A stretch of 64,000 nt of DNA. Source: Bacillota bacterium. Its GTDB lineage: Bacteria; Bacillota; Clostridia; Peptostreptococcales; Anaerovoracaceae. Made by a program: the position numbers and the translations under genes. Shown here piece after piece: positions 4,244-31,662 of the stretch (positions are counted from its first letter, which is position 1; each line of letters starts with the position of its first letter). The stretch covers positions 32,325-96,324 of the forward strand of contig JAFSHN010000050.1 in NCBI GenBank assembly GCA_017440275.1, in the 5' to 3' direction. The notes under the pieces were generated by a model. The model did no database searches. It saw only the letters and a list, made by a program, of their open reading frames with translations, and was not told the DNA's origin.

Positions 4244-4285
4244 CACTAACTTGCTAAAGCGTCACGTAAACATTGACAATTTTTC

Positions 4286-4322
4286 AAAAATAGACACCTT
4301 GTCTGGTTCAAACAGGGTGTCT
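4286..4322 (-). terminator. Intrinsic terminator of the EFR1-HD-M20 operon
   Basis: A stem-loop 4292-4322 (AGACACC arms plus extended pairing), followed on the minus strand by ATTTTTG, just downstream of the M20 peptidase gene. Confidence 0.75.
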
Positions 4323-4328
4323 TAGTAT

Positions 4329-5513: not shown

Positions 5514-5525
5514 AGTTATTCTCCT

Positions 5526-6590: not shown

Positions 6591-6592
6591 AA

Positions 6593-7345: not shown

Positions 7346-7370
7346 CTCACCGTATAAATAGGGTATGTAT

Positions 7371-7399
7371 ATTATACTTTTACAAAATGGTAATGTAAA
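7371..7399 (-). promoter_or_regulatory. Sigma-A promoter of the EFR1 operon
   Basis: Minus strand -35 TTTACA (7394-7399) and a perfect -10 TATAAT (7371-7376) with a 17-bp spacer, 25 bp before the EFR1 start. Confidence 0.75.
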
Positions 7400-7455
7400 C
7401 CTTTTTTATTTGTGTTAAAATGGATGTAATTCAAATCAAACGAGGTAATTATATA

Positions 7456-7893: not shown

Positions 7894-7904
7894 GAGGCCT
7901 CTAA

Positions 7905-8342
7905 ATGGAACTTGTTGTTAAACATTTCAGCGAGCTGACCGCTGAAGAACTTTTTCATATATATAAACTGCGTGTTTCAGTCTTTGTTGTTGAGCAAACT
8001 TGCCCTTATCAGGAAGTAGACGACTTTGACCGCAGCGCATATCACGTATGGCTGCAAGATGAAAATAAAATAGTTGCTTATGCAAGAGTTCTACCTCCCG
8101 GTATGGCTTTTAAAGAGGCCGGAATCGGCCGTGTGATTGCAGTTAAACGCCGCAAGGGCCTCGGTACACAAATCGTACAGGCTGCAATTGAAACAGCTGT
8201 ATCCAAACTGGGTGCAAATAGTGTTACATTAGAAGCACAGGTCTACGCCCGCGGATTATACGACAAACTGGGATTCGTTGCAACTTCCGAAGAGTTTCTG
8301 GAAGATAACATTCCGCATATACAGATGAAATTGACTATTTAA
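7905..8342 (+). CDS. GNAT acetyltransferase, ElaA-like
   Basis: This 145-aa protein has the ElaA-type GNAT pattern: LRVSVFVVEQTCPYQEVD near the N-terminus, GRVIAV, and the acetyl-CoA loop RRKGLGTQIV. Members transfer an acetyl group to an amine acceptor; the physiological substrate of ElaA proteins is not well defined. A strong GGAGG lies 8 nt before the ATG. It is second gene of a two-gene rightward unit closed by a strong terminator. Confidence 0.9.
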   Translation: MELVVKHFSELTAEELFHIYKLRVSVFVVEQTCPYQEVDDFDRSAYHVWLQDENKIVAYARVLPPGMAFKEAGIGRVIAVKRRKGLGTQIVQAAIETAVSKLGANSVTLEAQVYARGLYDKLGFVATSEEFLEDNIPHIQMKLTI

Positions 8343-8376
8343 AAATTCTGCCCACAAATATGCGGGCAGAATTTTT
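8341..8376. terminator. Bidirectional terminator between the GNAT gene and the T7SS operon end
   Basis: A 12-bp perfect stem (arms AAAATTCTGCCC and its complement) with a 10-nt loop and T-runs on both strands. It ends the rightward GNAT unit and the 14-kb leftward secretion operon. Confidence 0.9.
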
Positions 8377-8383
8377 GTTTTCA

Positions 8384-10465: not shown

Positions 10466-10483
10466 ATTAAGGTCTCCCTTAAA

Positions 10484-12679
10484 TTAGTTTTTTTCGTAAG
10501 ACACCTTTATATCCAGTTTATGTCCCGGTGATGGTCTTGTGGCTCTGAGTCTTGTTGTATATCCCTCTTTCACCTCAAACTTCACCGGCCCGAATTCGTG
10601 AACAATACGTCCCTTACATTCCGGGTCACTATATGAGTAAATTTTCAAATTTACCTTGTGAGTTTTTCCTATTGTAGCGGAACCGACAACTTTTTCTTCT
10701 TTTCTGCCGCACTTTACAATGTAGTTATTATATTCAGTGACCTTTCCATCTACAATCTTATTGCCGCCGTCTACGGTAAACTTATAGAAGCATCCGTGAG
10801 CCAGCGAGAGCGGTGAATGGCTGTCGTTGAGAGCAGAAAAAATTACGGTTCCCTTCTTTTCTGCCGGTGCAGCTTTTTTAGATTTCCCAAAGAATTCTTC
10901 AACAGTCATCGACGAAGATGGATTATTGTCAAAAATATCTTTGAATATTTCAGCAAAACCTTTTTGAGCCATAGCTTTTTCCAAGTCAACGGAGGAGCTA
11001 TCTACTCCGGTTACCGTAACCGGCGCCCCAAAGTCACTTGATACCTCAACACTCATAGGGGTTTTACTGGTCGGTCTTGTAACCTTGATTTTTGTAGTCT
11101 GCTTTGGTCTCACTTCGAAGTTCATAGGACCGCAGCTGTATGCCGGCTGTCCCGTACAATTAGGATCCTTCGGATCAAACATTTTCACAGTTAGCTGATG
11201 AATCCCGGATTGCGCAGGCAAAGGTGCAAACTGGCTGCCTTCATCACAGGTAATTTTAGGTTCGTTGAAGTAATAGGTTGCTGTATTTCCCTTGTCCACA
11301 TAGAACAGGCACTTGTACCCACTCAGTGAACATGCGGGATCGAATCTGTCTTCTTTCAGAACTTCATAGAAAACCATGCCGTTGTCGGCATTTTCATTTA
11401 TACTGATTGGTTTTAAGCCATGTGCTGCTTTTTCTGCAGGTTTTTGCGGCGGTTCTGCTTTTGGCTTAATTTCTTCAGGATTTTCTTTCTTTGGAATTTC
11501 ATTCTTAACTCCAATTGTGCCTTCCGACTTAAAGTCATCAAATAAATCATTAAATCCTGCAGTAGGGCCTACTGAACCCTCATCAAAGAACCAGGAGTTA
11601 CCTACTGTGCTGTCAGCAATCGGTATTTCTTCCTCCCTCTTTTCGTCTTCAAAACCAAAGTCATCACTAAGGTCCTCAATTACAACCATCGCCGGATCTA
11701 TTGAAGGTTCATAGGATTCCTCAACAAAATCTGCTTCCACTTTTTCTGCAGGTTCTGTAGAAACATAGCCGCTTTCGATTTGTTCAAGCATTCTTAAAGC
11801 ATTCTTTAAGTCTGTCGGAGTAGGAAATCTATCCGCCGGATTCGGTGCAATGGCTCTCATTACGATAGCTTTCAGTTCTTCACTGCCGTGTTTTGGTGCA
11901 GGAGGAACTTCCCCTGACATTCGGCGCTGACGAGCCTGTTCTTCCTGAGTTGCAGTCGGAACTTCCGGAGGTAATGGGAAGAATGGCATTCTTCTTTCAT
12001 TGAGAAGCCAATAAAGCACCATCCCAAGTGAATACTGGTCTGCTGCCGCTCCGTAAGGCTGGTTGTTATACACTTCAGGAGCCATGTAGTTAAAGGTCCC
12101 AGTTTTAGTACCACCCATGGTTCTCTCAGCAGTTTTAGCAATACCAAAGTCCCCAAGCTTAAAGGTACCATCGTCAGATACGAATAAGTTTTGAGGCTTT
12201 ATATCTCTGTGGATGATATTCTTGTCCTTGCAAAGTTCAAGAGCGTTGCAAATATCAATACCTATTTCAATTACCTGCTGCTGGTCAACAGGGTTTTTGA
12301 GTACAGCAATAAGAGGACGCAGCAACTCCATCTTGATATGAATATCCCAGCCGATTCCATCAGGGTGCTGCACATAACGGATATCATCAGAATATACAAC
12401 GTTGGCACAACCCTTAAGTTCTGACATAAGGGCGTATTCTTTGACGATATCCTCAAGGTGGTTTTTAAATCTTTCTGTAATAGATTTCTGGTCATATCCG
12501 TTGTATAAAAGTTCCTGAATGTCACTTTTACTCTTTGGTATGGAAAGTACTTTCAACGCTGCCTTATCTGTATGGCTGAAAATCTTTCTATGTATTTCAT
12601 ATACTGTTCCGAATGTCCCGCTGCCCAGATTGTCGACAACTTCCCAGTCGGGCCACATTTTTTTCACTTTATCAATCAT
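10484..12679 (-). CDS. Soluble Ser/Thr protein kinase 2 with two C-terminal beta domains
   Basis: This 731-aa protein has a kinase domain closely similar to its downstream neighbour: G-loop GSGTFGTVY, Lys43, HRDIKPQN at 157, DFG and APE are all intact. The linker repeats the motif DSTVG / DEGSVG / SEGTIG around residues 358-392. The C-terminus carries two related beta-rich units of about 110 residues (about 450-555 and 615-731), each ending in FEV...TRPS. A third copy is the separate 131-aa protein encoded just upstream. There is no membrane segment. GAGGAA precedes the ATG. A role in phospho-control of the secretion system is inferred from the operon. Confidence 0.93.
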   Translation of the reverse strand: MIDKVKKMWPDWEVVDNLGSGTFGTVYEIHRKIFSHTDKAALKVLSIPKSKSDIQELLYNGYDQKSITERFKNHLEDIVKEYALMSELKGCANVVYSDDIRYVQHPDGIGWDIHIKMELLRPLIAVLKNPVDQQQVIEIGIDICNALELCKDKNIIHRDIKPQNLFVSDDGTFKLGDFGIAKTAERTMGGTKTGTFNYMAPEVYNNQPYGAAADQYSLGMVLYWLLNERRMPFFPLPPEVPTATQEEQARQRRMSGEVPPAPKHGSEELKAIVMRAIAPNPADRFPTPTDLKNALRMLEQIESGYVSTEPAEKVEADFVEESYEPSIDPAMVVIEDLSDDFGFEDEKREEEIPIADSTVGNSWFFDEGSVGPTAGFNDLFDDFKSEGTIGVKNEIPKKENPEEIKPKAEPPQKPAEKAAHGLKPISINENADNGMVFYEVLKEDRFDPACSLSGYKCLFYVDKGNTATYYFNEPKITCDEGSQFAPLPAQSGIHQLTVKMFDPKDPNCTGQPAYSCGPMNFEVRPKQTTKIKVTRPTSKTPMSVEVSSDFGAPVTVTGVDSSSVDLEKAMAQKGFAEIFKDIFDNNPSSSMTVEEFFGKSKKAAPAEKKGTVIFSALNDSHSPLSLAHGCFYKFTVDGGNKIVDGKVTEYNNYIVKCGRKEEKVVGSATIGKTHKVNLKIYSYSDPECKGRIVHEFGPVKFEVKEGYTTRLRATRPSPGHKLDIKVSYEKN

Positions 12680-18065: not shown

Positions 18066-21000
18066 TTACTTCATCGGTCTTACTTTAACGGCTCTGCCGT
18101 TTTCTATAAACAATACTTCGTCTTCTGCAAGCTCTGCCTTCTTTTCTTCGTAGCTCAAGTTGTTCTTGAAGCAGGAATATTTTTCGGCTTTACCTGTTAC
18201 AATCAAAGCATTCTGAGAAGCTATCAAAGTCTTCGCAAGTGGCTCTCCTGCGCTGTTAGCTATGAGTCCTTCTTCCCCTGCTGTAGCAATGGCCATAAGT
18301 CCAAGGTCCTTGGAGAGTCTACACATACATTCAAGGGCGTCTCTCACATTGTCGGCTACTGAATCTGCAAATGTAACCACATCGTTGATTACGATGCAAA
18401 TCTGCTTGTTTTCTGCAAGGAATCTACCTTTGTTAAAGTTACCCTCTGCTTCGAAGATTCTTTCTCGTTCTTCTTCTCTCCATTCCATAGCGTCTATTAT
18501 GGAATTGACATTGTCTTTGAGTGCCTGGCCATCATAGTCTGAACTGTAGCAAGCGACTTTGTCTGCATACTCTGCTAATGCCTTTGACTTTGTATCAAAT
18601 ATATGTATCTCGTTGTCATTTTTCGAGATTAAAATGTCTAGTACAGATTTTAGCATATCCTCTGTCTCATAAACATTTTGACCTGTAATAACTCCGGTAA
18701 ATCTCTGGCTCAGATCCACATATGCAGGTTCACAGTTGTCGAATCTGATACCTACCGGAATCTGCTCACGGTTCTTGTACTGGCTAATCATATCGCCTGT
18801 CTTAACTTCCTTCGGAAGTACCGGAATCGCTTTTGCTTTGATTCCCTGACTGAATGGTTCCATCTTTTCCTTCAGAGCTTCTAACATACTTCTGCCGGCT
18901 GTATCATCGCCTGAGGAAGCATAGATGGCTGTCTGGAACTCAATCGGGCTCTGAGGAGGGACATTCTTAATAAGTGCCCTACCAGGGTTATTAGGCATTG
19001 TAGCCGGTCTTGAGCTTAACAATGTCTGATAATTTGAAATATCATTTTGCTGGAAAGTAATTACTCCGGAAACGCCATTTGTAATCTTGTAGTTAATTCC
19101 TGTAGTCTGATGACTTGTAAATACCACATGAATCCCGTAAGTCGAACCTTCACCTGCCAGCATGATTAAAAGTGCCTCAAGTCCATTGAAAGTTGCCATT
19201 GCTGGTACCAGATTATCGATTACGATGAAGATATCCGCCATATCGCGTGCAACATTTCGTCTGTATGCACCGATATTTCCTACATTACAATCCTGGAATC
19301 TGAACTTTCTGTACTGAAGTTCCCTCTGGATAAGCTCACTCAGTTTCTCCCATTTTTCTGCTTCGTAGTCTAAGACTACTCCGCCTACGTGAGGAAGTCC
19401 TTCGAATCCTCCCATAGTACGTCCACCGCAGTCGATGGCATAAATATTTACATCACGCGGTGAGTAATTGAGAACCATAGACATCATCAGTGTCTTTAAC
19501 AATGTTGTCTTGCCTGTTGCTCCACCGCCGTATATTGCAAAATGCGTATCCTTTGAGAAGTCCAGGTACTGAACACCCTGGTTCTGTTCTTGAGGTCTGT
19601 CGAACATACCAACCGGTACTGAAACAGTATCGTCCATAGGACTCCATCCGAAGTCTCCAAATACTCCTGTAACAGGAAGATCTGACAAGTGTACTTCTTC
19701 CGGAAGTTCCGGCATCCATAGTCCCGGAAGCTTTTTGATTCCACGACTTTCTGCCACTTGGTTAATATGTTCAATTATTACTGTAAGTTCATCTTTGCCC
19801 TTATCAGTCTTTTTCTTCTTTTTCTTCAGGTCAAGACGGCGTCCGTTGATATCAACCACCCTAACCTTATTTTCCGAATGTTCGGAAACCTTCTTGTCGC
19901 CCATATACTCTGCGCCACTCCAGTAGGACTGAACCAGTGCATATACTTCGTCGTTACCAACTCTTACATAGGCTCTGCCCGGCTGAGTAATGGTCGCCGC
20001 ATCAGGCTTCTTGATGATTTCTCTTGAATCAGAAACATCGTTGACCTTCATACAGATTCTGAATCTTGAGTTTGAATCAATCTGGTCGTTTACAACGCCT
20101 GTAGGTTTCTGAGTTGCCAGAACTATGTGGATACCAAGGCTTCGTCCTACACGGGCGAAACTTGTAAGCGCATCCATGAATTCCGGTTCTTCTTTTTTAA
20201 GTTCTGCAAATTCGTCAGAAACGATAATCAAATGGGGCATCGGTTCTTTTACCATTCCGGATTTGAAAAGTCTCTGATAGTCTCCTACTGTGTTGACGCG
20301 GTTTTCACTCATGAGTCTTTCACGTCGCTTGATTTCAGCTTCAATAGAAACTAAGGATCTGCCGATATTTGCATCAATATTAGTAAGTTTGTTAACTACA
20401 TGCGGCAATGGCTCAAGAAGCTGTGCCATACTTCCGCCCTTGTAGTCGATAATTACAAAATTCACATCATAAGGGTGATAATTGATTGCCATAGAGAGAA
20501 TCCATGACTGGATAAGTTCACTCTTACCGGAGCCTGTAGTACCTGCTATCAAGCCGTGGGCACCATGCACTTTTGAATGGATATCCAGCATAAACGGCTT
20601 TCCTCCCGGCATTACACCAATCGGAGCTGCCAGACTGTTTGCTGCATCGTTCTGACTCCAACGTCTCAGAACATCAAGCTGCTCTACGGTTCTTACTCCA
20701 TAACCTTCCATAAAAGTAACAGAGTTTGGAAGAGTATTATTTACCTTAAAGTCTTCCACTTCTACCGCTGCCATCTTGCGGGCGAATTTATCAAAATCAC
20801 TTCCGCTGACAGGCTCATCCGGTGTAAAGAAAAACTTCTCATTTGCACTCATTCTGTCATAAGCACATGGATTGTTGTTCAAATCTATAATGTATTGGCA
20901 GTGCTGAGGCAGCCAATATATATCGTCATATAAGAAAAGTGCTGTGATTCCAAGTTCAGGATGGTTGGTTGAAAGATAATCCATAATGGATTCTCTTTCT

Positions 21001-22625
21001 GTCATAGCCTTGTCACCTAAAATGAACACATAATGCGGAGTTGCTCCTGCACCCCTGTTCATTCCGTTATTCTGACTGGCTGCTTCCTGACGTCTGACCA
21101 ACATTTCCTTCATCAGTTCGCAGATATTGTGAGCTCTGTCATAATCAAATGCCAGAAATCTGAACTGGTGATTTTCATCCCAAATATGCGGAAGCCATCT
21201 CAGTGATGACCATTCATTTCTTTCGTTTTCGTTAAAAATACCAACAATATGAACTTCTTCTGCAGAATGGAGAGCAGACAGATTGATGAGCATATTGCGA
21301 ACAAAATGAACAGTTTTCTTTCTTTCGCCCAAGATACCTACAGTGCTCAAATTGCGGAGATTAACTCTTGCGGGCACATAGTCTACGATTCGGTTTTCTT
21401 CGGCAATCTGCGCACAAAGTTCTTCCATTTCGTCGGTTTCCATCTTGAAACCACGAACTTCAGCTCTGCTCTTGATGTCTACACAAAGCTGGTCGTAACC
21501 CATACCTACACGCACAGATAAAAAGTCATTATCTGACGGCATTCTTTCCCACAGATTTCTCTTCATCTGTCCCACAATCGAAAGACATTCCTGTGGTGTT
21601 GGGTTTTCTTCGGTGATAATGGTTCTCTGGGATTCCATTACCTTTTCAATCTTAGCCTGCTGATCTGCAATGTAAGCTGTATATTTTTCTTTTCTTTCTC
21701 TCTGATATGTCTCTATTCTTTCTTTAAGTTCTTTTTTGCGTTTCTTGGAAGAGTATAAATTTACTCCCGTTGAAATAGTTCTGAACGCTGCCATGGCAGG
21801 CGAATACATACCCATAATTGCACTTGAACCTAAAGAGGTGGCAATGTTGACTGCTTCCAGCAATCCGTCGCCGCCATTATATTCCTGACCCGGCGAAGGC
21901 GGAGCTGCCAGAATAATATCTTCATAAGGAAGTCTCGCTCTTGTTCTCGGAGATCTTCTGTATTTGATTGTTTTGCCTTGTTGTGGCTGCTGCTGAGGTT
22001 GCTGACTTCTTTGACTTTGGCTGGCACTTGCTCCAAGAGCAATGGCATTATCTGTGTTTTCGAAATACAGAACACCGTTCACCAAACTGATTTTTACTGT
22101 CAGGATATTCAAAACATCTTCGTTTCGCATAACAGCATTTTTGATTCTGCGCCCATTCAAATAAAGTCCATTTGTGCTGTCTGCATCGTCAACTCTCACG
22201 TTGCCGCCTGAACATGTGATGTTAAAATGTCTTCCGGAAACAAAAGGCAGTCCCAGAATAATATCGTTCTTGTCACTTCTTCCCACGCTGAAATGACCAT
22301 CATATGGCAGCTTAATGGATTTGCGTCCTGTCTGATTTACGTTGTGGAAAAAGATAACGGCGTTTTCGCCATTACCCGCCTGAATCTGAAGGGGTCTTCC
22401 CACCGGAATATTTTCTCTCGTAACAGGCAAAGAACCTCCGAGCCCCAGTGCAATGCTTCCCGCATTATAAGAAACAGTAATTTGATTTTGTGGCATCTCC
22501 TGAATCTGTACTGTGTCTTTTGCACCCGAACCGAAGGTTACTTTCTGATTTGAGTTAATCTCTCTTATATATAGATTGTTTCTGAATTGTAGTGACATTA
22601 ATAAAGGCATAAATGCACCGTCCAT
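18066..22625 (-). CDS. essC: EssC-type FtsK/SpoIIIE secretion ATPase with N-terminal FHA domains
   Basis: This 1519-aa protein is the motor of type VII (Esx) secretion. The N-terminal ~95 residues are FHA-like. A second, clearer FHA domain at about 105-205 shows SVGRSDKND, SGRHF and DSTNGLYLNG. A Gln-rich linker and a weakly hydrophobic stretch (about 255-285) where the membrane pair should be lead into the ATPases. D1 has Walker A GTTGSGKSE (about 693) and the Walker B-like IIVSDEFAEL (about 808). D2 has GGGATGKTT (about 1033). In D3 the P-loop is degenerate (GVITGQNVYE, about 1311). The start at 22625 has no ribosome site and lies about 13 nt from the predicted transcription start; Met6 or Met10 are alternatives. 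The gene name reflects family and context. Confidence 0.95.
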   Translation of the reverse strand: MDGAFMPLLMSLQFRNNLYIREINSNQKVTFGSGAKDTVQIQEMPQNQITVSYNAGSIALGLGGSLPVTRENIPVGRPLQIQAGNGENAVIFFHNVNQTGRKSIKLPYDGHFSVGRSDKNDIILGLPFVSGRHFNITCSGGNVRVDDADSTNGLYLNGRRIKNAVMRNEDVLNILTVKISLVNGVLYFENTDNAIALGASASQSQRSQQPQQQPQQGKTIKYRRSPRTRARLPYEDIILAAPPSPGQEYNGGDGLLEAVNIATSLGSSAIMGMYSPAMAAFRTISTGVNLYSSKKRKKELKERIETYQRERKEKYTAYIADQQAKIEKVMESQRTIITEENPTPQECLSIVGQMKRNLWERMPSDNDFLSVRVGMGYDQLCVDIKSRAEVRGFKMETDEMEELCAQIAEENRIVDYVPARVNLRNLSTVGILGERKKTVHFVRNMLINLSALHSAEEVHIVGIFNENERNEWSSLRWLPHIWDENHQFRFLAFDYDRAHNICELMKEMLVRRQEAASQNNGMNRGAGATPHYVFILGDKAMTERESIMDYLSTNHPELGITALFLYDDIYWLPQHCQYIIDLNNNPCAYDRMSANEKFFFTPDEPVSGSDFDKFARKMAAVEVEDFKVNNTLPNSVTFMEGYGVRTVEQLDVLRRWSQNDAANSLAAPIGVMPGGKPFMLDIHSKVHGAHGLIAGTTGSGKSELIQSWILSMAINYHPYDVNFVIIDYKGGSMAQLLEPLPHVVNKLTNIDANIGRSLVSIEAEIKRRERLMSENRVNTVGDYQRLFKSGMVKEPMPHLIIVSDEFAELKKEEPEFMDALTSFARVGRSLGIHIVLATQKPTGVVNDQIDSNSRFRICMKVNDVSDSREIIKKPDAATITQPGRAYVRVGNDEVYALVQSYWSGAEYMGDKKVSEHSENKVRVVDINGRRLDLKKKKKKTDKGKDELTVIIEHINQVAESRGIKKLPGLWMPELPEEVHLSDLPVTGVFGDFGWSPMDDTVSVPVGMFDRPQEQNQGVQYLDFSKDTHFAIYGGGATGKTTLLKTLMMSMVLNYSPRDVNIYAIDCGGRTMGGFEGLPHVGGVVLDYEAEKWEKLSELIQRELQYRKFRFQDCNVGNIGAYRRNVARDMADIFIVIDNLVPAMATFNGLEALLIMLAGEGSTYGIHVVFTSHQTTGINYKITNGVSGVITFQQNDISNYQTLLSSRPATMPNNPGRALIKNVPPQSPIEFQTAIYASSGDDTAGRSMLEALKEKMEPFSQGIKAKAIPVLPKEVKTGDMISQYKNREQIPVGIRFDNCEPAYVDLSQRFTGVITGQNVYETEDMLKSVLDILISKNDNEIHIFDTKSKALAEYADKVACYSSDYDGQALKDNVNSIIDAMEWREEERERIFEAEGNFNKGRFLAENKQICIVINDVVTFADSVADNVRDALECMCRLSKDLGLMAIATAGEEGLIANSAGEPLAKTLIASQNALIVTGKAEKYSCFKNNLSYEEKKAELAEDEVLFIENGRAVKVRPMK

Positions 22626-22978: not shown

Positions 22979-23698
22979 TTAAATTCTAAAGCTTCCCATA
23001 TAAGTGTGGTCTTTGACAGGAACAGGGTTCTCAACTACAAAAAACTCGAAAGTTTCTTCATTTGCCACATACATATGAGCAAGGGCAATTCCCACATCCA
23101 TCTGATTGGTACTGCCGAGACTCTTATTCAGCAAGCCTTTGTGGGCACAGTATACGTGAATCACATCGTCTTCGTGAGTGAAATACCATGGCTGACTATT
23201 GGCGCTTGACGGTGCAAGTCGTGCCGGAACAAGACGTGCGTCTTGAATATCACTTATCTCAGTCATATTTTTACGCTTGAATTTAAGAACGTCATCCCGC
23301 TGACCTTCGCCCTTAGGTTTACCAAAAGCCATAGTCATCACAAACTTAAGACCATCTTCTCTTTCTTTTTCTCCTTCCCACTGAGCCATGCCAAGCCAGC
23401 AAGCTCCAAGACCGATGTCCGCCAGATATAAATCAAGCTGCTGGAACATAAATCCAACATTGATAAGCGCCCCCGGTTTGTCTTCAGTGAAGATGGCCAC
23501 CACCTGTTTCGTAGTCCAGGGACAAATACACTTAACCGATTCTCTATCTACTATTTCTGCTCTGACTTTTATGTCCGGATAAAGAGGTTTTATTCCGTTA
23601 ATGAATTTTTCAATTCTCGCTATGCTATTGGGGCCTATGGATGCATTGACAAAGCTTCGCACCGATTTGCGTTTGAAAATCATTTCTTTTAAAGACAT
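22979..23698 (-). CDS. Nitroreductase-family protein
   Basis: This 239-aa FMN-dependent oxidoreductase fold has the N-terminal FKRKSVRSF motif, GFMFQQLDLYLADIGLGACWLGMAQ in the middle (quoted only as position 82-106) and RLAPSSANSQPWYF, all typical of the nitroreductase superfamily. The natural substrate is unknown. It is last gene of the hexuronate operon, 11 bp after uxaC, and is followed by the operon terminator. Its metabolic link to sugar-acid breakdown is unclear; it may supply or consume reducing equivalents. Confidence 0.9.
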   Translation of the reverse strand: MSLKEMIFKRKSVRSFVNASIGPNSIARIEKFINGIKPLYPDIKVRAEIVDRESVKCICPWTTKQVVAIFTEDKPGALINVGFMFQQLDLYLADIGLGACWLGMAQWEGEKEREDGLKFVMTMAFGKPKGEGQRDDVLKFKRKNMTEISDIQDARLVPARLAPSSANSQPWYFTHEDDVIHVYCAHKGLLNKSLGSTNQMDVGIALAHMYVANEETFEFFVVENPVPVKDHTYMGSFRI

Positions 23699-23709
23699 CT
23701 TTCACCTCA

Positions 23710-25101
23710 TTATTTCAATTCAAAGCCAAAGTAATTCACTGCATTTTTCCAGCAGATGTCTTCTACCAACTTTCCAAGGTATTCAATATCGTATGGATAC
23801 TGTCCGCTTTCGACCAAAAGTCCGATTTTGTTACAAAGGATTCTTCTGAAGTATTCGTGGCGGACAAAAGAAGTAAAGCTTCTTGAGTCTGTCAGCATAC
23901 CTACAGAACCTGCCAGAGTACCTGTTTCCATAAGCTGATCAATCTGTGCTTCGATACCTCTGATGTGGTCGAGAAGCCACCAAGCCGCACCATACTGAAC
24001 CTTTGCGCCGTCGGCTGCAAAATTCACAGCCATAGTTGCCAGCATTGTGTTGTCAGCCGGGTTCAGATTATAGAGAATAGTCTTTGGAAGTGCATTGGCA
24101 CCTTCGCAGTCTCCGAGGAAAGCTCCCAGTTTGAACGGGTCTGTCGTATAGCCAACACTGTCCCCACCGGCATCGGCACCGAAATATTCCACCAGTTTAG
24201 GAGAATTATTTCTGATAGGTCCCATATGAAGCTGCATAGCCATATTTCTCTTTGCGTATTCGCCTGCCAGGAAGTAGAGAAGTTCTCCCTGATAAATAGC
24301 TACTTCGTTTTCTGTAAGAGGTTTGCCGAGGAGGGCTTTTAAAACAATTGGTGCTGCGTCTCCGCGTTCATATCTGAACTTGATGAAACCGTGGTCTGTA
24401 ACTTTACATCCTGCTTCCAAGAAGAAGTCGAGAGACTTACAAAGAGCATCCTTAAGGCTTTCCCAGTCTGTAACTTCGCCATATTTTGCTCCCAGTTGAC
24501 CTGCTGCAATTACGAATGCAGGCTGATCAATATGCAGAAATCTGTCAGGTCTGAATGATGGCAGAACCTTAAACGGAACTGTATCGTCCCCCGCCAGTTT
24601 CAAATGCCACTCCAGGGAGTCTGCAGGATCGTCTGTAGTGCAGAGAATTTTTGCCTTTGCCTTATCCAACAAGGAAACAGCATCAAAGCCTTCACTTTGG
24701 AGCATCTTGCTTGTCTTCTTCCAGATTTCTTCAGCAGAATCTTCGCATAGCGGCGTTTCAATACCGAAGTATCTCTGAAGTTCAAGATGTGCCCAGTGAT
24801 AAACAGGGCTTCCGATGAGTCGAGGCATAATCTTTGCAAACTCATAAAACTTTTCATAGTCTGTTGCATCACCTGTCACATATTTTTCAGGCACGCCGGA
24901 AACTCTCATGCAACGCCACTTGTAATGGTCTGCTTCCAGCCAAAGCTGAGTGATGTTTTCGTAAGTTCTGCGTTCAAAAATTTCCTTTGCGGAAAGGTGA
25001 TTGTGATAGTCGATAATCGGACAATCTTTAGCATATTTGAAGAATAAATCTTCTGCAGTTTCTGTGGTCAGCAGAAACTTATCATCCATAAATTTTCTCA
25101 T
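23710..25101 (-). CDS. uxaC: Glucuronate isomerase
   Basis: This enzyme interconverts D-glucuronate and D-fructuronate (also galacturonate and tagaturonate), the first step of hexuronate catabolism. The start is ATG 25099-25101 with AGGAGA upstream; this gives 463 aa, the normal UxaC length. Hallmarks are PIIDYHNHLSAKEIF near the N-terminus (metal His pair), MQLHMGPIRNN, and LTDSRSFTSFVRHEYFRRIL near the C-terminus (position about 395-420). Its ribosome site lies inside the last codons of the larA-like gene, so the two are coupled. It is a cytoplasmic member of the amidohydrolase superfamily. Confidence 0.97.
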   Translation of the reverse strand: MRKFMDDKFLLTTETAEDLFFKYAKDCPIIDYHNHLSAKEIFERRTYENITQLWLEADHYKWRCMRVSGVPEKYVTGDATDYEKFYEFAKIMPRLIGSPVYHWAHLELQRYFGIETPLCEDSAEEIWKKTSKMLQSEGFDAVSLLDKAKAKILCTTDDPADSLEWHLKLAGDDTVPFKVLPSFRPDRFLHIDQPAFVIAAGQLGAKYGEVTDWESLKDALCKSLDFFLEAGCKVTDHGFIKFRYERGDAAPIVLKALLGKPLTENEVAIYQGELLYFLAGEYAKRNMAMQLHMGPIRNNSPKLVEYFGADAGGDSVGYTTDPFKLGAFLGDCEGANALPKTILYNLNPADNTMLATMAVNFAADGAKVQYGAAWWLLDHIRGIEAQIDQLMETGTLAGSVGMLTDSRSFTSFVRHEYFRRILCNKIGLLVESGQYPYDIEYLGKLVEDICWKNAVNYFGFELK

Positions 25102-25102
25102 A

Positions 25103-26377
25103 TTAGAACTTCTCCTTGTTAATCCAAAGACCCAGTGCAGGGTTTGGAATGAAGTAAACTTCTTCGCCGTCAGGCAAAGTATTGTAACCGTATTGTAAAG
25201 TTTCAGGATTGTAGCGCTTAATCGCCTCGTCGTAGTCGCAAGCACCGAAGCCAACGCCTTCAACTTCTTCTTTTGTAATATTTTTCACAGCATAAGTTAT
25301 GCTGAATCTATCATCAGAAGAACCGTGAATCAGGTGCGCTGCAGCTCCCATATTGTCCCGAAGATCCTGATTTTCAGGCTTTTCGAACTCTTCAAGAGTC
25401 TTGATTCTGCCTCTGTAACCGTACTTTCTGATAAGCACATCCACCTGATCGTCTTCGCCGAAGCGTTCGATTCCCGGTGCAAGAACTAAGAGTTCCCCTC
25501 CGTCTGCGATTGCCATACGGGTTCTGTAAACTGACTTGTTTCCGAGCCATGTGCTCTTAAATTCTGCAGGATCAAGATAAACTACACACTTCTTGATTCC
25601 TGTATCAACGAAGTCTATGTTCTTTTCCTGTGCCAGTTCGATGGCTGCTTCAAGGGCTTTTCTTGTATCGCCTATAAACAATCCGTGGGTATTTATAACG
25701 CCTCCCGGTGCCGTACATACTGTCAGCACGAAAAGAATAGGTCTTTCGTTCAAGAAGTGTTCCATACCGTAGTCGAAAATCTTGCGGACAGGAGTGTGGT
25801 CCTTGCCCATCATTCTTTCCATACCGTAAACGGCACCCACCATATGGCTCTTGTTGATCATGTCACTGCCGCCTACCCCTACGAAAAGGTTCTTTGCCTG
25901 GTTTGCCATACCGATAACTTCGTGAGGTACAACCTGTCCTACGGAAAGAATCAAATCGTACTTTTCGTCCATTACCATGCGGTTGATTTCAACACTTACA
26001 GGGTCATGCCAAAGACCTTCTGTAATCTCTTCCAGATATTCTGCCGGAACTTCGCCCAGCTTCATAACATCAGTTCTCCAATTGTGAGGAAGAAACTTTT
26101 CAAAAGGAATGTCACCGAACATAACTGTTACTTCTTCTTCGGTAACGGGCACATGAGTTCCAAGAGCCGGAAGTATGTCAACCTCCACCCCTGCCTCTGT
26201 CAGTGCATGATAATAAACGTTTGTTATATATCCGGCATTGGAGTGAAAACGAGTAAAATCAGGAGGAATGATAAGAACATTTTTCAGTTTCTTTCCTTCC
26301 AGACTCTTCAAAAGAGCTTCTTTTATTTCGCCCTGAGACAGTCCGCTGCCGCCTTTGTCATAAACAAAATGTTCCAT
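25103..26377 (-). CDS. LarA-superfamily nickel-pincer racemase/epimerase, candidate mannonate-gluconate 2-epimerase
   Basis: This 424-aa member of the lactate racemase family uses the nickel-pincer nucleotide cofactor. Residues matching the LarA catalytic set are present: Arg43 (DFTR), His75 (GTHVP), and His152, Lys162 and His178 with spacings of 10 and 16, exactly as LarA His174, Lys184 and His200. Lys162 would tether the cofactor. Some superfamily members epimerise aldonates at C2, including gluconate. Here the gene lies between mannonate oxidoreductase and uxaC in an operon that has 6-phosphogluconate dehydrogenase but no mannonate dehydratase, so mannonate-to-gluconate epimerisation is a strong inference. 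No larB, larC or larE is in the window. Lactate racemase is the alternative. Confidence 0.9.
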   Translation of the reverse strand: MEHFVYDKGGSGLSQGEIKEALLKSLEGKKLKNVLIIPPDFTRFHSNAGYITNVYYHALTEAGVEVDILPALGTHVPVTEEEVTVMFGDIPFEKFLPHNWRTDVMKLGEVPAEYLEEITEGLWHDPVSVEINRMVMDEKYDLILSVGQVVPHEVIGMANQAKNLFVGVGGSDMINKSHMVGAVYGMERMMGKDHTPVRKIFDYGMEHFLNERPILFVLTVCTAPGGVINTHGLFIGDTRKALEAAIELAQEKNIDFVDTGIKKCVVYLDPAEFKSTWLGNKSVYRTRMAIADGGELLVLAPGIERFGEDDQVDVLIRKYGYRGRIKTLEEFEKPENQDLRDNMGAAAHLIHGSSDDRFSITYAVKNITKEEVEGVGFGACDYDEAIKRYNPETLQYGYNTLPDGEEVYFIPNPALGLWINKEKF

Positions 26378-26388
26378 AAGAGTCTCCT

Positions 26389-27237
26389 TTATACTCCGCT
26401 GTATGCTGAGAATCCACCGTCTACAGGAATTACGATACCTGTAACGAAGGAAGCTGCCTTTTCATCAACCAGGAAAAGCAGTGCTCCAAGCAGTTCTTCC
26501 GGTGTGCCGAAGCGACCCATCGGCGTTGCTGCCAGAATCTTTCCTGTTCTTGCAGTTGGTGTTCCATCTTCGTTCCAAAGGAGCTTCTTGTTCTGTTCAG
26601 TTGAGAAGAATCCCGGAGCAATTGCGTTTACTCTGATGCCCACCTTGCTGAAATGAACTGCAAGCCACTGTGTAAAATTGGAAATAGCCGCTTTTGCACC
26701 TGAATATGCAGGAATCTTCGTCAGCGGTGTATATGCGTTCATTGAGCTTACGTTGAGGATTGTACAGCCTTCGCGGCCGATCATATCCTTAGCAAAAGCC
26801 TGAGTAGGAATGAGAGTGCCTGAGAAATTCAGGTTGAAAACATATTCCACATCTTCGCTGGACATATCGAAGAAAGTTTTTGTTTCTTCATCCAGGTCTC
26901 CCATCTCAAAATATTCTTTATCTGTAGTTGCTCTAGGATTGTTACCGCCTGCTCCGTTGATTAAGATATCGCAAGGACCCAGCTTTGCCAGAACTTCTTC
27001 GTGAGCAGTCTTTACGCTTTCTGCGTTAGTAACGTCTACGGAAACTGCGATTGCTTCGCCACCCATAGCCTTGATTTCTTCAGCTACTGCTTCAGCCTTG
27101 GAAAGGGTTCTTCCAAGTATAGCAACCTTTGCTCCGCACAGTGCCATAGCCTTTGCAAACTCGCTGCAAAGAACTCCCGCGCCGCCTGTAACAACAGCAA
27201 CTTTGCCTTCCAGATTTGGTTTATAACATAAATTCAT
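26389..27237 (-). CDS. uxuB: SDR-type D-mannonate oxidoreductase (fructuronate reductase)
   Basis: This 282-aa short-chain dehydrogenase has the cofactor motif VVTGGAGVLC, the NGAGGN loop, catalytic Ser-Tyr-Lys in NVSSMNAYTP / PAYSGAKA, and the ending PMGRFGTPEEL...VDGGFSAYSG. That ending is characteristic of the Bacillus-type UxuB enzymes that reduce D-fructuronate to D-mannonate with NAD(P)H. ATG 27235-27237 is chosen because GGAGG lies just upstream; the frame is open further. It follows uxaC chemistry directly. The gene name is by family resemblance. Confidence 0.92.
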   Translation of the reverse strand: MNLCYKPNLEGKVAVVTGGAGVLCSEFAKAMALCGAKVAILGRTLSKAEAVAEEIKAMGGEAIAVSVDVTNAESVKTAHEEVLAKLGPCDILINGAGGNNPRATTDKEYFEMGDLDEETKTFFDMSSEDVEYVFNLNFSGTLIPTQAFAKDMIGREGCTILNVSSMNAYTPLTKIPAYSGAKAAISNFTQWLAVHFSKVGIRVNAIAPGFFSTEQNKKLLWNEDGTPTARTGKILAATPMGRFGTPEELLGALLFLVDEKAASFVTGIVIPVDGGFSAYSGV

Positions 27238-27250
27238 AATAGACCTCCGG

Positions 27251-27282
27251 CATATGCTTGAGCGATTTGGCAAAAGCATATG
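27251..27282. repeat. 9-bp inverted repeat ahead of the uxuB-like gene
   Basis: CATATGCTT (27251-27259) and AAGCATATG (27274-27282) are perfect inverted repeats 14 nt apart. They lie in the only sizeable gap (68 bp) of the hexuronate operon, just upstream of the ribosome site. This could be an operator or a transcript-stabilising hairpin. Confidence 0.5.
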
Positions 27283-27305
27283 AAGTTATTAACATCGTAA
27301 AATAA

Positions 27306-28139
27306 TTAATCAAATATAAAATGTGTCAAGCCAACAGCAACACCATCTTGGTCACATGATGTAGTTACCCAGTCTGCTGCAGCCTTGACCTGCGCGCAGG
27401 CATTTTCCATAGCGATTCCCACACCTGCTGCCTCAATCATAGTCAGATCGTTAAGGCCATCCCCGAAAGAGTATGTATTTTCGCGGGGAACACCCAGATA
27501 ATCGGCAAGAGCCATAAGCGCCTCACCTTTGTTGGCGTAGCACTGATTGATTTCTACGTTCTGAATGTGGGAACTTGAAACCGCGATATTAGGAAAACGC
27601 TTCGGGAGTTCATCAAGAAGCTCAAGTCTCAAGATAGGTTCTTTGGTGAAAAACTGAATTTTCTGCACGTCCTGTCCCCGTTCTATGATGAACGCTTTCA
27701 ATTCAGTAACAGGCCTTCTCAGTTCGTGGAACATCTTGCGGTAGTGAGCATCGTCTATAGTTTCATCAATTTTTTCTTTGAGGGCTTCTGTCATCCATCC
27801 TGCGTTATCCATATAGCAGTCATAAATAACAGGCATGGTATCTAACCATGCCATGATATCCACCGCCTGTGCCCATGGAATTTCGGCTCTGTACAGATTA
27901 TGGTCATTCACAAGGTCAGCTACGGCCGCACCGTTGATGGTGATGGCATAGTTGATGAAGGAAAGACTGCGGATGCTTTCAGGCATACCGCCATAGAAGC
28001 GGCCCGTAGTCGGTACCACTTCGTAACCCATTTGTGCCGCGCGCTCCAGCGCCTTTAAATTAACTTCACTTAATTCTTTGGAAGAATTGAGTAAAGTTCC
28101 GTCCAGATCCAGGGCGATGATTCCTTTTATTTTATGCAT
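27306..28139 (-). CDS. Cof-type HAD phosphatase
   Basis: This 277-aa haloacid dehalogenase-like protein has motif I ALDLDGTLLNSS, motif II TTGRF, and motifs III/IV NKGEAL...SFGDGLNDLTMI. The C2B cap typical of Cof proteins is in the middle. It removes phosphate from sugar phosphates or similar small molecules. The ATG at 28137-28139 overlaps the end of gnd by 8 bp, indicating translational coupling. Within a sugar-acid operon it may relieve accumulation of a phosphorylated intermediate, but the substrate is not evident from sequence. Confidence 0.9.
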   Translation of the reverse strand: MHKIKGIIALDLDGTLLNSSKELSEVNLKALERAAQMGYEVVPTTGRFYGGMPESIRSLSFINYAITINGAAVADLVNDHNLYRAEIPWAQAVDIMAWLDTMPVIYDCYMDNAGWMTEALKEKIDETIDDAHYRKMFHELRRPVTELKAFIIERGQDVQKIQFFTKEPILRLELLDELPKRFPNIAVSSSHIQNVEINQCYANKGEALMALADYLGVPRENTYSFGDGLNDLTMIEAAGVGIAMENACAQVKAAADWVTTSCDQDGVAVGLTHFIFD

Positions 28140-29583
28140 TGTACTGTCCTGCAGAAGTATTGCCGCCGTGGCCTGTCCAGTTAGTGTGGAAGAACTTGCC
28201 TCTTGGCTGGTCGATACGTTCATAAGTGTGAGCACCGAAGTAGTCACGCTGAGCCTGCAGCAGGTTAGCAGGCAGAGTTTCTGTAGTATATCCGTCAAAA
28301 TAGCTCAGTGCAGAAGAGAATGCCGGCATTGGAATTCCTGCCTTTACTGCGTAAGCAACAACTTCTCTCCATGCAGGAACTAATGATTTGATTGTTTCTG
28401 CAAAGTAATCATCAAGGAGCAGATTTTCCAGTTCAGGATTCTTGTCATAAGCTTCCTTAATCTTACCCAGGAATACGCTGCGGATGATGCAGCCGCCTCT
28501 CCACATAAGAGCGATTCCGCCGTAGTTAAGGTTCCAGCCGTTAGTTTCAGCAGCAGTTCTCATAAGAGTATAGCCCTGTGCATAGGAAATAATCTTACTT
28601 GCGTAAAGAGCCTTTCTGATAGCTTCAATGAAAGCAGCCTTGTCGCCTTCAAATGCAGGGATTTCCTTAGTGAAAACCTTGGAAGCAGTCACTCTCTGGC
28701 TCTTCATTGCGGATAAGCATCTTGCAAATACTGCTTCTCCGATGAGTGTCAAAGGAACACCTTCATCCAGAGCTGAGATTGCAGTCCACTTACCTGTACC
28801 CTTCTGGCCTGCAGTATCTAAAATATAGTTTACAGTTGTTTCACCGTTTTCATCCTTGTAACCTAAAATGTCACGAGTGATTTCGATAAGGTAACTGTCT
28901 AATTCTGTTTCGTTCCATGCAGCGAATACTTCGTGCATTTCTTCAGGAGACATTCCAAGACCATCCTTCATCAGCTGGTAAGCTTCGCAGATGAGCTGCA
29001 TGTCACCGTATTCAATTCCGTTGTGAACCATCTTTACGAAGTGGCCGGCACCGTTTTCGCCAACCCAGTCACAGCAAGCCTGTCCGTCTTCAACCTTTGC
29101 ACAGATTGCCTGGAAGATAGGTTTTACATGCGGCCAAGCTTCTACTGAACCGCCGGGCATCATGGAAGGGCCGTTTAAAGCACCTTCTTCACCGCCGGAA
29201 ACGCCGCAGCCAACATACAGTAAGCCCTTGCTTTCTACGTAAGCAGTTCTTCTGATTGTGTCAGGGAAGTGGCTGTTGCCGCCGTCAATTAAGATGTCGC
29301 CTTCTTCAAGATGTGGCAATAACTGTTCGATAAGATCGTCAACTGCCTGTCCTGCCTTAACCATCATCATGATTTTACGAGGCTTTTCCAGGTTTGCAGC
29401 CAATTCTTCAAGAGAATAAGTGCCGATGATATTCTTACCGGCAGCTCTGCCTTCAACAAAGTTCTTAACCTTGTCTGAAGTACGGTTGTAAACTGCAACT
29501 GTGAATCCTTTGGATTCCATATTCATAACCAGGTTCTCACCCATTACGGCAAGACCTACGAGTCCGATATTTGCTTTATTCAT
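28132..29583 (-). CDS. gnd: 6-phosphogluconate dehydrogenase, decarboxylating
   Basis: This 483-aa, full-length long-form enzyme oxidises and decarboxylates 6-phosphogluconate to ribulose 5-phosphate with NADP+. The N-terminal Rossmann motif GLVGLAVMGENLVMNM is followed by NRTSDKV. Active-site stretches CGVSGGEEGA, KMVHNGIEYGDMQ and the C-terminal FHTNWTGHGG are present. Its place inside a hexuronate operon, next to a sugar kinase, is unusual. It points to a route that delivers gluconate rather than 2-keto-3-deoxygluconate. An 18-bp gap separates it from the kinase gene. Confidence 0.97.
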   Translation of the reverse strand: MNKANIGLVGLAVMGENLVMNMESKGFTVAVYNRTSDKVKNFVEGRAAGKNIIGTYSLEELAANLEKPRKIMMMVKAGQAVDDLIEQLLPHLEEGDILIDGGNSHFPDTIRRTAYVESKGLLYVGCGVSGGEEGALNGPSMMPGGSVEAWPHVKPIFQAICAKVEDGQACCDWVGENGAGHFVKMVHNGIEYGDMQLICEAYQLMKDGLGMSPEEMHEVFAAWNETELDSYLIEITRDILGYKDENGETTVNYILDTAGQKGTGKWTAISALDEGVPLTLIGEAVFARCLSAMKSQRVTASKVFTKEIPAFEGDKAAFIEAIRKALYASKIISYAQGYTLMRTAAETNGWNLNYGGIALMWRGGCIIRSVFLGKIKEAYDKNPELENLLLDDYFAETIKSLVPAWREVVAYAVKAGIPMPAFSSALSYFDGYTTETLPANLLQAQRDYFGAHTYERIDQPRGKFFHTNWTGHGGNTSAGQYNA

Positions 29584-29601
29584 AATTAATTCCTCCGGAA
29601 A

Positions 29602-30681
29602 TTATCTCTGTACGCGAGCGGTGCCTGCGTAAATGTCCCAAACCTGTTTTTCGTCTGCAGGTTCAGCATAGTCGTTTAAGCTGCTTGCTGCAAGAACGCC
29701 GCTTGCCCATCCGAACTGCAGGCACTTAGCAGGTTCCCAGCCCTGAGTTAAGCCGTAAAGCAGACCGCCTGTGAATCCGTCACCGCCGCCGATTCTGTCC
29801 ATTACAGGAATTGGACGAGGTTCTTCTACACACCAAGTATCGTCTGCCAGCAGGATTCCGCCCCACAGGTGTTCGTTTGCACTGATTACCTGACGGAGGG
29901 TTGTACCGAATACCTTAGCATTGGAGTACTTTTCCTTAACCTGAGTAATCATTTCCTTGAAGCTTTCAATCTTGGACTTTAAGTCCTTGCCGCCTGCTTC
30001 AGGACCCTTGAATCCCAGACAAAGCTGGAAGTCTTCTTCGTTGCCAACCAGTACGTCAGCTACAGATGCGATTTCGTGGAACGCAGCTCTCAGTTCTTCT
30101 TCTCTGCCCTTCCAGAAAGTAGCTCTGTGATTTAAGTCAAAGCTTACTAAAGTTCCGTGAGCCTTTGCAGCTTTTGCAACATCCAGACAGAACTTAGTTG
30201 TTTCTTCACTCATTGCTGCAATAAGTCCGGAGATGTGAAGAATACCAACGCCTTCTTCTCCGAAAATTCTTTCAATATCAAATTCTTCAATGGAAAGAGT
30301 TCTTCCTACTTCTCCTGCACGGTCATTCCAAACTCTTGGCGCTCTCAGACCGAAACCGGAGTCAGCGATATTGAACTGATGACGGTAGCCCCATGGGCCG
30401 CCCTGTTCTGCATCTACGCCTTCGTAACGGATGTTACGGGAACGCAGTTCACTCTTGATAAAATCTGCAATTGGGCTTCCTTTAACGAACTTTGTCAATA
30501 CGAGACATTCGTGTCCTAAAGAAGCCGCAACATTTAATACGTTGCTTTCAGCGCTTGTGCACTGCATGATAAAACGATTGCTGTTATGTACAGCCATTCT
30601 GTTTTCAGGTGTGATACGCACGCCGATAGAAGTTGGGCATGCAATTGCATAACGATAGTTGCTGCGGAGATTCAGTTCCAT
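29602..30681 (-). CDS. PfkB-family sugar kinase (gluconate or KDG kinase)
   Basis: This 359-aa ribokinase-fold protein has the C-terminal signature DRIGGGDGFTGGLLYG (anion hole and catalytic Asp) and an N-terminal half resembling 2-keto-3-deoxygluconate kinases (YRHQFNIADSGFGLRAP, VWNDRAGEVGRTL). The start is ATG 30679-30681 after AAGGAA. It is first gene of the hexuronate operon. Sequence resemblance alone suggests KDG kinase, but the operon lacks mannonate dehydratase and has gnd next to it. A gluconokinase of PfkB type giving 6-phosphogluconate fits the context better. It is divergent from the AraC regulator gene. Confidence 0.88.
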   Translation of the reverse strand: MELNLRSNYRYAIACPTSIGVRITPENRMAVHNSNRFIMQCTSAESNVLNVAASLGHECLVLTKFVKGSPIADFIKSELRSRNIRYEGVDAEQGGPWGYRHQFNIADSGFGLRAPRVWNDRAGEVGRTLSIEEFDIERIFGEEGVGILHISGLIAAMSEETTKFCLDVAKAAKAHGTLVSFDLNHRATFWKGREEELRAAFHEIASVADVLVGNEEDFQLCLGFKGPEAGGKDLKSKIESFKEMITQVKEKYSNAKVFGTTLRQVISANEHLWGGILLADDTWCVEEPRPIPVMDRIGGGDGFTGGLLYGLTQGWEPAKCLQFGWASGVLAASSLNDYAEPADEKQVWDIYAGTARVQR

Positions 30682-30828: not shown

Positions 30829-30855
30829 TTAGAAAAAGGAGAGGAGGATTTGCAA

Positions 30856-31662
30856 ATGCCGCATATTTTTTCACATAAGGGCACAAAAATATACAGTCAC
30901 CACAGTGTGGATTCCTATCCTGATGCCAATGTTTTCAATATGCACGCCCACGACTGGCTTGAAATATTGTATTGCATTTCCGGCAAAGGAAACTACATTG
31001 TAGAAGACAGTATTTACTCCCTGGAGCCGGGAGATATCTTCATTATCCGTCCCGGCGAAATGCACAAATTGCAAATTGATTCATCGAGTGCCTACGAAAG
31101 AATTGTCATCCGTTTTTCGCCTGATTTATTTGATGATTACAGTGCAAAAGATGCACTCTTAAAAATTTTTTACGACAGACGTAAAGGTCAGCACAATCGT
31201 CATCGGATTGACGATTTAAATATTGTGAAGACGGCATTTTCAAACTACGAGTTTAAGAATATTTATAATATAGAATTAAATCTGCTAGGGCGCCTCATAC
31301 TGATTTTGACCGCTTTGGAAGGGATATATACCTCCTCTGAGGAGTCTGTTTCTTCAAACATTCAAAGTAAACTGCTCTCTTATGTTGACGAGCATCTTTT
31401 CGATAATATTTCCGTCGGTGATATAGCAGAAGCCTTCGGCAAAAGCCGTTCTCAAATCAACAGAATTTTCAGCCGTATGACAGGAAAAAGTCTTTGGGAT
31501 TACGTTATTACCAAAAGACTTATGGCAGCCCGCACAATGATACAAAGCGGAGAGTCAGCTCACGAAGCCTGCAACGACTGCGGTTTTTCAGACTACTCGG
31601 CCTTTTACAGAGCATATAAGGCAAGATTCGGCAACTCTCCTCGTGACGATGCACCAAAGTAA
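30856..31662 (+). CDS. AraC-family transcriptional regulator
   Basis: This 268-aa protein has an N-terminal cupin sensor domain (HAHDWLEILYCISGKG, LEPGDIFIIRPGEMH) and a C-terminal double helix-turn-helix (VGDIAEAFGKSRSQINRIF, and HEACNDCGFSDYSAFYRAYK). It likely binds a sugar acid and controls the divergent hexuronate operon. ATG 30856 is preferred over a TTG six bases earlier, because GGAGG then has normal spacing. Downstream genes for plsC and ABC-F run in the same direction but are probably functionally unrelated. Confidence 0.92.
   Translation: MPHIFSHKGTKIYSHHSVDSYPDANVFNMHAHDWLEILYCISGKGNYIVEDSIYSLEPGDIFIIRPGEMHKLQIDSSSAYERIVIRFSPDLFDDYSAKDALLKIFYDRRKGQHNRHRIDDLNIVKTAFSNYEFKNIYNIELNLLGRLILILTALEGIYTSSEESVSSNIQSKLLSYVDEHLFDNISVGDIAEAFGKSRSQINRIFSRMTGKSLWDYVITKRLMAARTMIQSGESAHEACNDCGFSDYSAFYRAYKARFGNSPRDDAPK

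Follow-up and report, generated by a model that had tools for sequence, protein, structure and literature searches.

The canonical isomerase pathway of hexuronate catabolism runs through UxaC, UxuB, UxuA, KdgK, and KdgA and includes the 2-keto-3-deoxygluconate (KDG) branch. For Thermotoga maritima, Rodionova 2012 put forward a different route, in which mannonate is turned into gluconate and then into 6-phosphogluconate (cited in both PMC7583248 and PMC6978723). Members of groups 19 and 20 of the LarA superfamily were shown to epimerize free D-mannonate to D-gluconate, a native substrate other than mannonate is suspected for group 19, and a hexonate substrate is only supposed for group 18 (PMC7583248). 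A further enzyme of this type (GntE) was described from an oomycete (PMC11770544).

A group 18 homolog is encoded in the stretch of 64,000 nucleotides analyzed here (the window; contig JAFSHN010000050.1 of a Bacillota bacterium, assembly GCA_017440275.1, 75% complete). Six genes, all intact and closely spaced, occupy positions 30681 to 23710 of its minus strand in the order PfkB kinase, gnd, HAD phosphatase, short-chain dehydrogenase/reductase (SDR), LarA homolog, and uxaC. The operon probably encodes every step of a hexuronate catabolic pathway that avoids the KDG branch, with the epimerase preceding the kinase. This route had been put forward in an earlier note on the same DNA and is now supported by a gene for each step, the GntE signature of the LarA homolog, the largely mutual exclusion of UxuA and the epimerase among UxaC genomes, and the fact that zwf was not found in 53 of the 61 genomes that carry the epimerase (referred to as carriers).

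The operon and its predicted enzymes

The gene identities and their association, the catalytic residues, and the exchange with UxuA were all established computationally. The operon comprises the following genes:

29602..30681, minus strand: PfkB-family sugar-acid kinase, candidate gluconate 6-kinase (ATG at 30681; Pfam PfkB 72 bits; reaches no NCBIfam cut-off)
28132..29583, minus strand: gnd, decarboxylating NADP-dependent 6-phosphogluconate dehydrogenase (TIGR00873, 771 bits, cut-off 427)
27306..28139, minus strand: Cof-type HAD-IIB phosphatase (TIGR00099, 163 bits, cut-off 137; 8-base overlap with the gnd end)
26389..27237, minus strand: SDR-type fructuronate reductase/D-mannonate oxidoreductase with UxuB function (NF006132, 446 bits, cut-off 281)
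25103..26377, minus strand: LarA-superfamily group 18, putative nickel-dependent hexonate (mannonate/gluconate) 2-epimerase (NF052594, 627 bits, cut-off 500)
23710..25101, minus strand: uxaC, glucuronate isomerase (NF002794, 513 bits, cut-off 387; Pfam UxaC 559 bits)

From the kinase to uxaC, the genes are separated by 18 bases, the 8-base overlap, 68, 11, and 1 bases, and a single transcript is likely because these gaps are so small. Five of the genes lie where the earlier note had placed them; UxaC, SDR, LarA, and Gnd score above curated NCBIfam cut-offs and the kinase is recognized by Pfam PfkB. The note was also right that neither a mannonate dehydratase (UxuA) nor a KDPG (2-keto-3-deoxy-6-phosphogluconate) aldolase is encoded inside the operon. 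The HAD phosphatase, which sits between Gnd and the SDR, is an addition to its gene list and possibly clears dead-end phosphates.

In the proposed route, UxaC would isomerize D-glucuronate to D-fructuronate, which the SDR would reduce to D-mannonate. The group 18 enzyme would then invert C2 by a proton-coupled hydride transfer via the nickel-pincer nucleotide (NPN), yielding D-gluconate. The PfkB kinase would phosphorylate D-gluconate to 6-phosphogluconate, and Gnd would convert it to ribulose 5-phosphate by oxidative decarboxylation. Gnd would thereby give back the reducing equivalent used by the SDR, and the sequence would be redox-neutral if the cofactors match.

The LarA homolog was assigned to the NCBIfam family NPN_18_hexonate, “nickel-dependent putative hexonate epimerase.” Its sole match among solved structures is 4nar (E 8.5e-32), the T. 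maritima enzyme named GntE2 in PMC7583248. For the alignment, 85 group 18 proteins were taken from 87 loci, as L026 and L078 yielded no full protein. D40, R43, H75, H152, E153, V154, K162, H178, W277, K281, and H348 are invariant in all 85 proteins and A347 is kept in 84. D40, H75, H152, and K281 represent the catalytic Asp/His/His/Lys of GntE enzymes, and R43, K162, and H178 the NPN-binding Arg/Lys/His. The usual GntE signature, E, V, A, and H at the positions of LarA F175, F176, W358, and T359 (PMC11770544), is present as E153, V154, A347, and H348, with the last two assigned visually from the alignment with 4nar. The catalytic, NPN-binding, and signature residues are all there, in agreement with the full catalytic set that had been ascribed to this protein. 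The terms “group 18” and “LarAH18” are absent from the available text of PMC11770544, whose group numbering may differ. A distant second LarA-like protein in the same genome (G000:C3:15429-16010, L002; L027:6758-8017; Lar_N 44 bits) adjoins genes that by eye resemble histidine degradation.

The kinase is set apart from KDG kinases by its sequence. The window kinase shares 57-91% identity with the operon kinases of related loci and 47% with a second copy in L091. Seven KDG-kinase-like proteins from related loci share 27-33% identity with the window kinase and 48-57% with the T. maritima KDG kinase. All 42 operon kinases carry T42, S43, Q102, N104, and N119, positions occupied in KDG kinases by G, G, G, Y, and Y (the first four in eight of eight proteins, the fifth in six, the other two being gaps in short rows). 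These positions presumably correspond to substrate contacts in the Thermus KDG kinase; if they contact the substrate, the changes would suit hydroxyls at C2 and C3. The arginines at positions 121 and 186 are common to both types of kinase. With model scores below cut-off (23 bits for the KdgK model NF052444, cut-off 400) and differing conserved residues, the window kinase falls outside the KDG kinases. One related locus (L030) encodes UxuA, a long-chain UxuB, and KdgK-like and KdgA-like proteins (assigned by similarity to scanned members) in addition to the operon PfkB, which is therefore distinct from KdgK. An assignment of the PfkB gene as KDG kinase was dropped because of the low identity, the differences in 42 of 42 proteins, and the presence of both kinases in L030. 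The operon PfkB forms a distinct clade and is a candidate gluconate kinase in view of the adjacent Gnd and the absent zwf.

A PfkA-type protein (L100, cluster C17; also L101 and L104) was considered as a stand-in kinase where PfkB is absent and was rejected. It is more likely glycolytic because NCBIfam assigns it as a diphosphate-fructose-6-phosphate phosphotransferase (372 bits, cut-off 273). In L100, L101, and L104, this diphosphate-dependent phosphofructokinase-like gene and an HAD-type protein adjoin Gnd, with PfkB absent.

The 6-phosphogluconate consumed by Gnd requires a source. The zwf family (PF02781) was detected in eight of the 61 carriers and was not found in the other 53 or in the window's own 75% complete assembly. 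Unless the gene escaped detection or falls into assembly gaps, Gnd in these 53 carriers must depend on a sugar-acid kinase for its substrate.

Gene neighborhoods and exchange with the KDG branch

GTDB species genomes were scanned for epimerase loci, and the best 80 of 575 confirmed loci were taken. They span Clostridia, Bacilli, an Acholeplasmataceae bin, spirochaetes, Kiritimatiellae, Verrucomicrobia, and Victivallales, and many have the herbivore gut as their stated origin. Within 9 kb of the epimerase, Gnd occurs in 58 of the 80 loci, PfkB in 38, the SDR in 31, UxaC in 24, a relative of the HAD phosphatase in 18, UxaE in 15, a long-chain reductase of the mannitol dehydrogenase family in 11, and UxuA in four. 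UxaE, the long-chain reductase, and UxuA were assigned via scanned members, and many of the 80 contigs end near the locus. A wide-flank subset was formed from the 46 loci whose contigs extend 5 kb or more upstream and 2.5 kb or more downstream. Gnd is present in 38 of these, and the association of the operon genes goes beyond chance because PfkB and Gnd both lie no more than 9 kb from the epimerase in 32 of the 46. Among these 32 loci, UxaC is found in 20, a fructuronate reductase in 23, UxaE in ten, and UxuA in one, and nine are without UxaC, reductase, or UxaE. The SDR and the long-chain reductase are mutually exclusive in all 46. Inspection of epimerases without PfkB/Gnd (L053, L058, L061, L070, L098, and L099) revealed no consistent alternative partner.

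Spirochaete loci such as L092 and L090 carry UxaE, the long-chain reductase, PfkB, Gnd, the epimerase, and UxaC consecutively, an arrangement that would also take galacturonate. Adjoining the spirochaete operon, KdgA-like and KdgK-like parts seemingly form one fused frame of about 575-600 amino acids (L092:12673-14397 and L093). GH2 hydrolases lie near L028, L032, L044, and L091 and MFS_2 transporters near L023, L026, and L044. They are a possible supply of glucuronate, although GH2 is not glucuronide-specific. In L138 (G396, 4054-5373), the UxaC beside the epimerase looks broken, with separate matches and stops, and an assembly error is possible.

The earlier note called for a search for uxuA and kdgA and regarded a uxuA-kdgK-kdgA set elsewhere in the genome as contrary to its route. 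Neither UxuA (PF03786) nor KDPG aldolase (PF01081) was found in the window's assembly, these being the only dehydratase and aldolase families searched; KdgK was not searched there. The canonical isomerase pathway, which is recognized by UxuA together with UxaC and UxuB and by KDPG aldolase, was thus not detected in this genome. The absence is weak evidence on its own because the assembly is just 75% complete.

In an order-level sample, UxaC was detected in 62 of 393 genomes, 61 of which were kept (G269 was dropped at 19.6 bits, below the cut-off); G044 and G053 were added since UxaC was seen at their loci, giving 63 UxaC genomes. UxuA is present in 51 of them and the group 18 epimerase above cut-off in 11. 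Some LarA match at E 0.001 exists in 42 of the 63, the weaker ones being left uncounted. The epimerase occurs without UxuA in nine genomes and UxuA without the epimerase in 49; both are present in two (G159 and G167, of one genus) and neither in three (G299, G374, and G418). UxuA is accordingly absent in nine of 11 epimerase carriers versus three of 52 non-carriers (Fisher p 5e-7; p 9e-6 for the 61 drawn UxaC genomes; both uncorrected for kinship). Within the window's own family (n = 22), it is absent in nine of nine carriers versus three of 13 non-carriers (Fisher p 5e-4, likewise uncorrected for kinship).

The exchange can also be followed within one genus, in which G281 encodes UxaC, the epimerase, SDR, HAD, and Gnd up to the contig end, and G338 encodes UxaC-KdgA-KdgK plus UxuB-UxuA. 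Four carriers that are at least 92% complete (G281, G045, G339, and G106) lack UxuA. In a first family sample of 119 genomes, to which the KDPG aldolase search was confined, UxuA was found in none of the six carriers above cut-off and KDPG aldolase in one, G009, which has a divergent epimerase. In L030, from upstream of 2877 to 11272, the KDG branch (UxuA, UxuB, KdgK-like, KdgA-like) and the gluconate branch (PfkB, Gnd, HAD, epimerase) stand side by side.

Two genes flank the operon in the window:

22979..23698, minus strand: nitroreductase-like protein (PF14512, 140 bits; 11 bases past uxaC)
30850..31662, plus strand: AraC-family regulator, candidate operon regulator (PF12833 and PF02311; divergent, upstream of the kinase)

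The nitroreductase-like gene has no relative above threshold in the other epimerase loci and is probably outside the pathway. A divergent AraC-like gene is found at the equivalent place in L023, L049, and L087. Further away (18066-22625), the window encodes a 1519-amino-acid protein with an FHA-like start and FtsK-like ATPase motifs, whose resemblance to EssC of type VII secretion was judged by eye only.

Supply of the nickel-pincer nucleotide

LarC (PF01969), LarB (NF033503), and LarE (TIGR00268; curated cut-offs for the latter two) were searched in the 61 carriers. LarC was detected in 31. LarB and LarE were each detected in 25, an identical set of genomes that also have LarC. In 29 carriers, all three genes are absent or below cut-off. 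These include G044 (83% complete), G339 (92%), G045 (95%), and the window's genome, so that the larB/larC/larE search suggested by the earlier note came back empty at the cut-offs in this 75% complete assembly. LarC alone is present in six carriers, and G424 has a partial LarE at a contig edge that scores slightly below cut-off. Weaker matches, chiefly to model parts, exist in many of the 36 carriers called incomplete. Of the 29 carriers without larB/C/E above cut-off, 28 are in the alignment (G339 is not), and all twelve signature residues are intact in them.

A loss on a single branch was considered and rejected, as the absence is scattered on the epimerase tree. Across its 85 rows (28 lacking, 21 having, 36 unlabelled), 16 changes were counted versus 16.1 after shuffling. 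This scatter fits repeated loss and also fits assembly gaps. Several findings argue against gaps alone. The three genes sit on separate contigs in ten of the 25 complete sets, and LarB or LarE above cut-off is never found without the other two. All three are absent in six of six spirochaete genomes searched (a seventh locus, L066, is not included), as well as in G045 and G339 with their high completeness. Five of the 25 LarC matches are fragmentary (G396, G446, G053, G281, and G439), and two of the fragments contain stops; a frameshift is needed for LarC in L. plantarum.

Uptake of the cofactor, a different synthesis route, and assembly gaps could each explain the missing genes. Tentatively, about half of the carriers, the window's included, may run hexuronate catabolism on an NPN enzyme without LarB-LarE-LarC synthesis and obtain NPN from gut neighbors or through other enzymes. 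If this is true, NPN would be a vitamin-like compound shared in herbivore guts, and the absence of the cofactor genes in many carriers raises a testable question of such sharing. The available text of PMC11796402 mentions genomes with larB, larE, and larC yet no larA and does not mention the reverse case. No publication title or abstract start was found on larA carriers that lack larB/larC/larE.

Competing readings and known routes

Several observations weigh against the proposed route. The individual reactions, the direction in which they run, and the placement of the epimerase before the kinase are predicted from the genes, and no assayed member of group 18 was found in the consulted parts of the literature. 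The mechanism needs NPN made by LarB, LarC, and LarE, none of which was found above cut-off in 29 of the 61 carriers. PfkB is missing beside Gnd in six of the 46 wide-flank loci, and eight have neither within 9 kb. UxuA scores above cut-off in 13 of the 61 carriers, some of the matches being partial (48 are without it). The main rival reverses the last two enzymes before Gnd: PfkB would phosphorylate D-mannonate, and the group 18 enzyme would convert 6-phosphomannonate to 6-phosphogluconate. This order requires the identical gene inventory and was shown in cell extracts of Lactobacillus suebicus, with the genes not identified (PMC6978723). The operon includes a phosphatase, and R285, R287, and R357, which are likewise invariant in group 18, could serve as phosphate binders. 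Against it, the epimerase bears the E-V-A-H signature of free-mannonate enzymes, and the literature consulted, as far as it was available, reports no LarA enzyme that acts on a phosphorylated acid. We consider the kinase-first order unlikely.

An ordinary KDG route appears very unlikely. Here, PfkB would be a KDG kinase, the dehydratase and KDPG aldolase would be members of other families or be encoded in the quarter of the genome that the assembly lacks, and LarA would turn gluconate into mannonate. The kinase's top solved-structure match is indeed the T. maritima KDG kinase 2afb (114 bits), and its top NCBIfam scores are for a KDPG-aldolase/kinase fusion (169 bits, cut-off 700) and the KDG kinase model NF041332 (86 bits, cut-off 440). 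In L140 (G167) and L141 (G159), the epimerase stands beside the SDR and UxuA with no PfkB or Gnd in 19 kb, which suggests gluconate flowing into KDG; the G159 epimerase copy contains one internal stop. In G299 (L142), UxaC is accompanied by KdgA-like and KdgK-like genes with neither UxuA (PF03786) nor the group 18 epimerase in the genome, and because of this case, presumably with a different dehydratase, the absence of PF03786 alone cannot exclude a KDG route. The low identity of the operon kinase to KDG kinases, its consistent residue differences, and the occurrence of both kinases in L030 speak against this reading, as do the four nearly complete carriers without UxuA. It would also leave no obvious supplier of 6-phosphogluconate for Gnd in genomes without zwf. 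There is likewise only a slim chance that the epimerase interconverts some other pair of hexonates or uronate-derived acids, with the operon serving a related sugar acid. The fact that no assay of group 18 was found, the suspicion about the native substrate of group 19 (PMC7583248), and the eight wide-flank loci with neither PfkB nor Gnd would accommodate such a substrate. However, UxaC and the fructuronate reductase make mannonate and Gnd consumes 6-phosphogluconate, so that the neighbors set the substrate pair, and two unrelated reductases substitute for one another in an identical setting.

If the epimerase acts on free mannonate ahead of the kinase, as we favor, the operon would supply a natural substrate and a direction for LarA group 18 and name a candidate for a new type of gluconate kinase. 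Uronic acids, which derive from pectin, xylan, and host glucuronides, are important nutrients in the gut. Replacement of the KDG branch would feed pentose phosphates, and probably NADPH, in genomes where zwf was mostly not found.

Compared with the canonical pathway, the first two steps are the same, and the last three are replaced by epimerase, kinase, and Gnd. The gene set of the Thermotoga-type route (fructuronate reductase, LarA epimerase, kinase, and Gnd) is present. As described for T. maritima, hexuronate would be converted to mannonate, epimerized at C2 to gluconate by a LarA homolog, phosphorylated, and passed from 6-phosphogluconate to the pentose phosphates. The epimerase belongs to group 20 there and to group 18 here. 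The kinase of the Thermotoga gluconate route is of the FGGY type, whereas it is of the PfkB type in this operon. T. maritima, used as a control, is positive for UxuA and KDPG aldolase, in contrast to the 48 of 61 carriers without UxuA. The operon kinase shares the PfkB family and the two arginines with 2afb and differs from it by T-S for G-G, Asn for two Tyr, and Gln for Gly. The route of L. suebicus, which leads to phosphoketolase, similarly takes mannonate to 6-phosphogluconate without KDG and is redox-neutral to ribulose 5-phosphate; the kinase precedes the epimerase there, and the genes were not identified (PMC6978723).

GntE1, GntE2, and LarAH15 have the catalytic and NPN-binding residues and the E-V-A-H signature in common with group 18 (PMC11770544), which stands apart as a group and is described by an NCBIfam model of its own. 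In the open-licence literature, as far as it was available, no publication on this operon or on the function of group 18 was found beyond the supposition in PMC7583248. The idea of the route itself is not new, since a proposal for Thermotoga preceded it and enzymes of related groups have been shown to catalyze the epimerization. New are the group 18 epimerase in a complete, widespread operon, the distinct PfkB clade, the exchange with the KDG branch, and the puzzle of the cofactor genes.

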